Assembly (NCBI RefSeq): GCF_002715865.1
Contig: NZ_CP017696.1
Location: 1,364,001-1,428,000 of the forward strand
DNA length: 64,000 bases
Direction of reading: 5' to 3'
DNA from: Bifidobacterium asteroides DSM 20089
GTDB taxonomy: Bacteria; Actinomycetota; Actinomycetes; Actinomycetales; Bifidobacteriaceae
Part shown: one piece after another, positions 11,552 through 15,328 of the stretch
Position numbering within the stretch: position 1 is the stretch's first letter
How the letters are laid out: the number at the start of each line of letters is the position of its first letter
Program-made: the position numbers and the translations under genes
The notes under the pieces: model-generated
The model's input: only the letters and a program-made list of their open reading frames with translations
What the model was told of the DNA's origin: nothing
Database searches by the model: none

Positions 11552-11706
11552 GGTTACTCCTAGATTCAAGGGCCCCGGGTCGACCGCCCCTGTGGCGGAC
11601 GTGAACCGGCAACCGCGTAATAGTCTAGCGCAACCCGGGGAGAATACGACCCCTTGCGCCACACGCCGAATCCACCAACCGGTGTGGCGAGCCGAGCTCC
11701 CTTTAG

Positions 11707-14707: not shown

Positions 14708-14772
14708 GGCCCTGATCAGAGCACCTCGGCTCGCCCTGCTCAGCTTTGACACACCCCCTCCAGGGTGTATCA

Positions 14773-14802
14773 TTGACAACAGATATACGGGGGACGTATA
14801 CA
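14773..14802 (+). promoter_or_regulatory. Strong sigma-A-type promoter with dyad repeats
   Basis: TTGACA (14773-14778), an 18-base spacer, and TATACA (14797-14802). The promoter is bracketed by related half-sites: GTGTATC just before the -35, GATATAC in the spacer and GTATACAC over the -10, which together look like an operator for a dimeric regulator. No annotated gene lies downstream on this strand before tRNA-Met, which is on the opposite strand. Confidence 0.65.
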
Positions 14803-14851
14803 CGATGGACCTATAGGGGCTGAATTATTTTCAGTTCCAGAGGAGATGTAC

Positions 14852-14935
14852 ATGCGTATAGTTTCCCGGCATATGCCGACGGCTCCGACTCGAGCCCGTC
14901 CCGTATTCTTTTCCCTGATAAATTCTCATACTTAG
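14852..14935 (+). CDS. Small ORF (27 codons) behind a strong promoter and ribosome site
   Basis: ATG CGT ATA ... TAG encodes 27 residues beginning MRIVSRHMPTAP and ending SLINSHT, with four arginines and no membrane segment. AGGAG lies six bases before the ATG, and the promoter at 14773-14802 places the 5' end about 40 bases upstream. The arrangement resembles a leader peptide whose translation controls folding of the downstream RNA. I know of no homologue. Conservation would need to be tested before accepting it as coding. Confidence 0.45.
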   Translation: MRIVSRHMPTAPTRARPVFFSLINSHT

Positions 14936-15063
14936 CGGTTCTTCGGAAACGCTTCCGGATTATCGTGACATGCGTAGATCTTATGGCTGTCTACGGATGC
15001 ACGCTTGGGGCACCGAGAAGTGGATATACACCGAGGGTGTTCTATGATCCGACATAAAAAACG

Positions 15064-15182
15064 CGCCTAGCTCTTTTCCCCCGGCTTACATGTGAAGCCA
15101 TACATATTGCATCGGTGAATCATGGATGCTAGAGCTAGGCGGCGAGAGGATGGCCTCGACAATAGTCGGGGCTGTCCTTCTA
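15064..15182 (+). ncRNA. Candidate structured RNA with three-way junction
   Basis: An 11-bp perfect closing stem (15064-15074 with 15131-15141) holds two inner hairpins: GGCTT/AAGCC (15083-15099, loop ACATGTG) and GCATC/GATGC (15109-15129). Immediately after it comes a 13-bp hairpin with some G-U pairs around loop AATA (about 15148-15180). A TATGAT box at 15043-15048 could start it separately from the promoter at 14773. I could not match it to tmRNA, 6S, SRP, RNase P, or TPP, purine or cobalamin riboswitches. The strand is inferred from the upstream promoter. Confidence 0.5.
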
Positions 15183-15260
15183 ATAAGACTATCAAGAAAG
15201 TTCGGGGCACAAAACCTTGACCAGCCCACTGCAGTCGTTGAAGACACAGGTCAGTTTTGA
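15150..15260 (+). CDS. Possible second small ORF (36 codons) within the structured region
   Basis: ATG at 15150 opens 36 codons beginning MASTIVGAVLLIRLSRKF, a short hydrophobic stretch followed by basic residues, then a polar tail, ending TGA at 15258-15260. GAGAGG directly abuts the ATG, which is too close for efficient initiation, and the ATG lies in the hairpin after the three-way junction. It could be a gene gated by the RNA fold, or chance. Confidence 0.2.
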   Translation: MASTIVGAVLLIRLSRKFGAQNLDQPTAVVEDTGQF

Positions 15261-15297
15261 GACAAAAACCTCGAACTCTTAATTCGTTCCATTAATA

Positions 15298-15328
15298 AAG
15301 CCCCGGAACCTAGCAGGTTCCGGGGCTT
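15298..15328 (-). terminator. Rho-independent terminator of tRNA-Met
   Basis: A 13-bp perfect stem (AAGCCCCGGAACC / GGTTCCGGGGCTT) with five-base loop TAGCA, followed on the minus strand by TTATTAATGG. It begins seven bases past the 3' end of the tRNA. Confidence 0.88.

Follow-up and report, generated by a model that had tools for sequence, protein, structure and literature searches.

The question raised by this locus is what occupies the stretch between a gene for a YheO-like PAS/HTH regulator, which lies upstream on the same strand, and the tRNA-Met and SBP_bac_5 genes, which lie downstream on the opposite strand, in the window analyzed here (64,000 nucleotides of the Bifidobacterium asteroides DSM 20089 genome). 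A preliminary description had proposed an attenuator-gated micropeptide, a dual-function small RNA, or an uncharacterized structured RNA, and it is the last of these readings that is supported by homologs, by covariation, and by conserved start and stop signals. Positions ~14780 to 15185 of the plus strand almost certainly specify a conserved structured noncoding RNA, ~405 nt long in the window copy and up to ~500 nt in relatives, whose probable ends are those suggested by a promoter and a terminator-like hairpin. The earlier remark that no known gene follows on this strand was correct, because the RNA itself would be the gene. When the sequences are compared, a promoter of vegetative type proves to be conserved, followed by a 5′ hairpin whose loop is GGGG(G), a middle part that varies, a core stem (P1), and a terminator-like 3′ hairpin, and there is covariation in the core and in the whole of a distant form of the RNA, in both cases beyond shuffled or slid controls. 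From this comparison we infer that an RNA of ~400 nt is expressed, and we incline, on balance, to the view that bee-gut bifidobacteria have here a gene for a structured noncoding RNA that is free-standing and acts in trans. Provided that it is transcribed, these bacteria, which can be cultured and also grown in gnotobiotic bees, would have an RNA of ~400 nt specific to their lineage.

Homologs are confined to a narrow group. A DNA search among 59 relatives, with the window's own copy counted in, gave matches in 16 genomes, every one of the same genus-level group; 13 copies are full length with 81–100% identity (again including that of the window), and three match in the core only, with 74–76% identity, and preserve the whole order of the parts despite the change of most of the sequence. 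A covariance model of the core added five copies that are far more diverged (E-values of 5e-9 to 2e-5, which the tool itself describes as rough), and the total therefore comes to 21 of the 27 genomes of the group. Named carriers are B. asteroides, B. polysaccharolyticum, B. apousia, B. mizhiense, B. mellis, B. choladohabitans, [indicum], Bifidobacterium xylocopae, and Bombiscardovia coagulans; the carrier species are bee-associated. No convincing copy was found in the remainder of the family (189 genomes searched) or in the order (396 genomes searched), and the phages and plasmids searched gave no match to the RNA. A 32-bit match in G074 (g36) was judged false, as it overlaps coding sequence and has no invariant core; the matches of 27–28 bits in G532 and G464 from the order were put down to chance on their rough E-values, and so was a pattern match in Pelotomaculum, which apparently lies within a sugar-nucleotidyltransferase-like gene. 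Six of the 27 genus-level genomes (G003, G008, G011, G014, G015, and G018) had no detectable copy even with laxer filters, which may reflect loss, later gain in the other genomes, or divergence. These six genomes are 2.3–2.6 Mb in size. That bee-gut groups have the RNA while most of the family seemingly lacks it raises the question of its role in that niche.

The alignment of the 16 closer copies also locates the start of the RNA. The −35 element TTGACA at 14746 is invariant in all of them and is followed, after 16 nt, by TAT(G/C)AT or TATGCT (TATGAT or TATGCT in most relatives); in the window, TTGACA at 14746–14751 is paired with TATCAT at 14768–14773, and with 11 of 12 matches this was the best site in the region in a promoter scan. 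The five copies of the distant form have TTGACA at the position equivalent to 14746, and this conserved arrangement argues that the RNA gene would have a promoter of its own. The promoter suggested previously, with TTGACA at 14774, was rejected, since that hexamer is unique to the window copy and is missing from the 20 other homologs. The conserved promoter places the start of the RNA near 14780, just ahead of a hairpin with the sequence TATACG-GGGGA-CGTATA (14784–14800). The spacing of the sequences around the promoter that had been taken for dyad half-sites is not preserved in relatives; instead, TATACG-GGGGA-CGTATA forms the 5′ hairpin of the RNA, the loop of which varies in length. This hairpin exists in all 21 copies; in the distant form it reads TGCGTT-GGGG-GATGCA and variants, and its stem, which differs between the forms, covaries inside the distant form.

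The strongest evidence for structure comes from the core. The RNA strand folds much more stably than shuffled sequence does, with z values of −5.4 for 14803–15262 and −6.1 for the core. The 11-bp inverted repeat noted earlier (15064–15074 with 15131–15141) is present and, with two outer pairs, composes P1 (15062–15074 with 15131–15144). In a core alignment of 15 sequences, the named structure was paired in 92.7% of cells, while slid versions of it reached 31–52%, and 15 pairs had changed on both sides, a count reached by none of 500 shuffles. The closing stem P1 itself is paired in 97.4% of cells, with 5 of its 13 pairs doubly changed. Covariation is thin within the asteroides clade because the stems there hardly vary, but it is ample in the distant form (five species), where a 14-helix fold extends over ~480 nt. 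In this form 97.4% of 540 pair cells hold, a percentage that leans towards the fold because the fold was partly taken from a consensus prediction on the same alignment; the safer measure is the number of doubly changed pairs, 31, against 3–7 in slid controls. Such compensatory base-pair changes among the homologs point to a structured noncoding RNA gene. The apex of the core is less uniform. In the asteroides clade, the predicted fold places two hairpins there, at 15083–15099 and 15109–15129, the latter with one double change from U-A to C-G, and to this extent the two inner hairpins of the preliminary description, which make a three-way junction, stand. In indicum-type and distant forms, however, a single long hairpin replaces them; L014, L015, and L016 have this one-hairpin apex, and the three-way junction is therefore a local variant. 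One side of P1 is opened by a one-sided internal loop (15075–15086) that holds the C-strand TTTCCCCCGGCT, of which TTCCCCCGGCT is identical in 21 of 21 copies.

At the 3′ side of the core, the further hairpin that had been pointed out is also present (15147–15178). It has 15 pairs, 10 of which have changed on both sides in the core alignment, and is conserved in all copies as the putative terminator hairpin, with only a weak T tail in the window. A terminator scan of the window did not flag it, the tail being T-poor in the window's clade; the T-run is found in the distant form only, where the 3′ end reads GCGGG..CCCGC-TTTTT and has, as judged from its sequence, the features of a textbook intrinsic terminator. 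A frame of 36 codons over this hairpin, which had been noted previously, is broken by frameshifts in many relatives and was discarded.

The middle of the RNA retains its pairing while its sequence drifts. Hairpin H2 (14816–14838), which has 9 bp and stands directly before a GGAG motif, varies in 14 of 23 columns, yet 97% of its cells are paired, and the indicum-type copies also have a hairpin at this position. The following domain (14957–15050) is closed by stem P0, in which GGATTAT (14957–14963) pairs with ATGATCC (15044–15050) in 96.7% of cells. This place is taken in the distant form by a covarying domain of five helices, which is longer and ends in the same TCCGA. Within the P0 domain, a hairpin at 15007–15042 contains the CACCGAG direct repeats; these are present as described, sitting in the hairpin arm, but are missing from L011–L013, where some closing pairs of the hairpin covary (counts for the asteroides clade were left out, the register being drawn shifted there). 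As much as 75% of the columns in the interior of P0 vary, a freedom that would suit an intergenic stretch in decay whose stems arose by chance. The compensatory changes, the invariant core, and a promoter conserved across 21 species refute such an origin for the core, and for the locus we regard it as extremely improbable. The stems do not decay in relatives, as they would if the structure were accidental.

The same region includes a small reading frame that invites an alternative explanation, in which the RNA has a dual function or is an attenuated micropeptide gene, with the frame translated and the folds controlling its translation. The frame itself is present as a sequence: at 14842–14935, a GGAG motif, partly paired in a predicted hairpin, precedes 27 codons running from ATG at 14852 to TAG. 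In each of the 16 closer copies, of asteroides or indicum type, an ATG follows GGAG and opens a frame of 27, 30, or 38 codons, and in the asteroides clade only 1 of 28 columns varies in the block with GGAG and two ATGs (14839–14866), which may be an initiation site or a structural element. The body of the frame behaves differently, as 43% of columns vary in codons 5–27. Variable columns are distributed over the three codon positions as 13/8/9, with no excess at the third, and the pN/pS of 0.54 was matched or beaten in 27 of 150 column shuffles, so that neither test gave a coding signature. The peptides are unrelated between lineages, and no comparable frame was found near the 5′ hairpin of the distant form, where frames occur elsewhere and not in all copies. 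The lack of a coding signature and of a frame in the distant form leaves coding by the 27-codon frame unsupported, as judged by sequence comparison, though still conceivable in the closer lineages. A dual function could apply to the asteroides/indicum lineage, in which the ribosome-site motif and the open frame recur, but with no gene downstream to be regulated, we consider translation of the frame under control of the folds improbable.

Attenuation meets a further objection. Attenuators with leader peptides likewise have a promoter, a short frame, and then stems, but here the strand has no downstream gene to regulate, and for this reason a role as attenuator or leader was rejected. The neighbors named at the outset are the usual ones, but the flanking genes change on both sides between species, which also argues against a leader or attenuator: an aminotransferase gene lies upstream of the RNA in L015, and downstream neighbors include a glyoxalase-like gene (L014), DHDPS (L042), an LPXTG protein (L011), and, elsewhere, a chloride channel. 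The proposal of an attenuator-gated micropeptide is therefore not supported. In the window and several distant genomes, on the other hand, the RNA sits between the genes for tRNA-Met and a solute-binding protein on one side and rpmE on the other, the latter recognized from its L31 leader or from the adjacent release-factor gene prfA; this shared setting indicates that the locus is orthologous.

How the free-standing RNA would act may be read from two strands that never change. All 21 copies retain both the GGGG(G) of the 5′ loop and the strand UUCCCCCGGCU of the core, which are mutually complementary, the G-run of the loop is the only one common to all copies, and the duplex between them is predicted at −9 to −17 kcal/mol. 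We consider it likely that the UUCCCC strand is the docking site of the 5′ loop, with 5–7 bp formed between them (as many as 9 in indicum-type copies); such docking would tie the first nucleotides of the RNA to the 3′ core as a pseudoknot. Covariation can neither support nor refute this docking because neither partner varies, and in the distant form other G-runs could also pair with the C-strand. Such a GGGGG/CCCCC lock would lend itself to a simple two-mutant test. The identity of both strands, while the surrounding stems covary, suggests that the docked site would be held by more than pairing, whether by a protein partner, which is our first choice, by an mRNA target, or by pairing between RNA molecules. 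The step involving a protein partner is tentative, though plausible. The next most likely use of the C-strand would be its release to pair with G-rich sites of mRNAs. In its full form, this idea makes the RNA a trans-acting antisense regulator, in which a UUCCCCC seed pairs with G-rich ribosome sites and the GGGGG loop serves as a lid, in a manner resembling that of sRNAs with C-rich motifs. An invariant C-rich strand exposed in an internal loop and an internal complementary lid are what such a regulator might have, but typical antisense sRNAs are smaller and less elaborate in their folding than this RNA, and conservation extends past a simple seed into the adjoining GGCU; we regard an antisense role as possible but rather doubtful. 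The 6C RNA (RF01066), like other sRNAs with C-rich motifs, has a conserved unpaired C run, but two C-loops instead of the single C-run in a one-sided internal loop found here, and its model had no match in the genome.

The third possibility, pairing of the loop and C-strand between molecules to form dimers or larger assemblies, would make this a self-assembling ornate RNA. The conserved single strands are self-complementary, the fold of the distant form is ornate, and kissing loops assemble OLE, ROOL, and GOLLD, a precedent for intermolecular pairing (PMC12286853). The docking within one molecule accounts for the same data, however, and assembly appears decidedly improbable. OLE, ROOL, GOLLD, and raiA RNAs are comparable in being free-standing, several hundred nucleotides long, and ornately folded with covariation and probable loop–loop pairing, although the present RNA is smaller than OLE, ROOL, and GOLLD, has no Rfam match to any of the four, and exists in one bifidobacterial group only. 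Large free-standing structured noncoding RNAs are thus a known kind, and this family is one without an Rfam entry. A search of Rfam 15 at the gathering score gave no family over the RNA, only tRNA and the L31 leader nearby, loose thresholds gave nothing credible at the locus, and no trace of the family was found in the literature searched. None of the sRNAs consulted from the published lists for B. animalis (PMC4338058) and B. breve (PMC5746004) lies between rpmE and tRNA-Met. Identity with tmRNA or RNase P RNA was rejected, as these lie at G000:532943–533341 and G000:639612–639988, respectively.

There remains the kinship of situation with 6S and Ms1 RNAs, which are also free-standing structured RNAs of a few hundred nucleotides. 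The present RNA occupies a lineage without a known member of either: the 6S model (RF00013) had no match in the four genomes searched here (G000, G006, G023, and G014), while the positive control matched in five known genomes, and Ms1 was reported to be absent from Bifidobacterium by synteny (PMC9130861). Both RNAs are reported as missing there, and unknown polymerase-binding RNAs are predicted in their place (PMC9130861, PMC11077062); for these the present RNA would be a concrete candidate. It could accordingly be imagined as an RNA polymerase-binding RNA that replaces 6S/Ms1 in these bacteria. Nevertheless, it is multi-domain and does not have the single long hairpin with a central bubble of those RNAs, it is confined to part of the family, and the 6S/Ms1 gap alone is weak evidence, so that we name it as a candidate only and think the replacement unlikely. 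A wider speculation, likewise unlikely, is that the RNA represents a new family, restricted to bifidobacteria associated with bees and to relatives of these, and forms a pseudoknotted scaffold that fills the missing place of 6S/Ms1, with the lock of loop and C-strand controlling a global partner such as RNA polymerase or the ribosome.

The surroundings of the RNA gene contain other structured elements. An L31-Actinobacteria ribosomal protein leader (RF03158, 42.3 bits) was found at 11571–11616 on the minus strand, and the same leader occurs near the RNA of the distant form. Between the RNA gene and tRNA-Met, a perfect 14-bp hairpin at 15298–15328 is probably the minus-strand terminator of tRNA-Met and might also serve the plus strand as a backstop.
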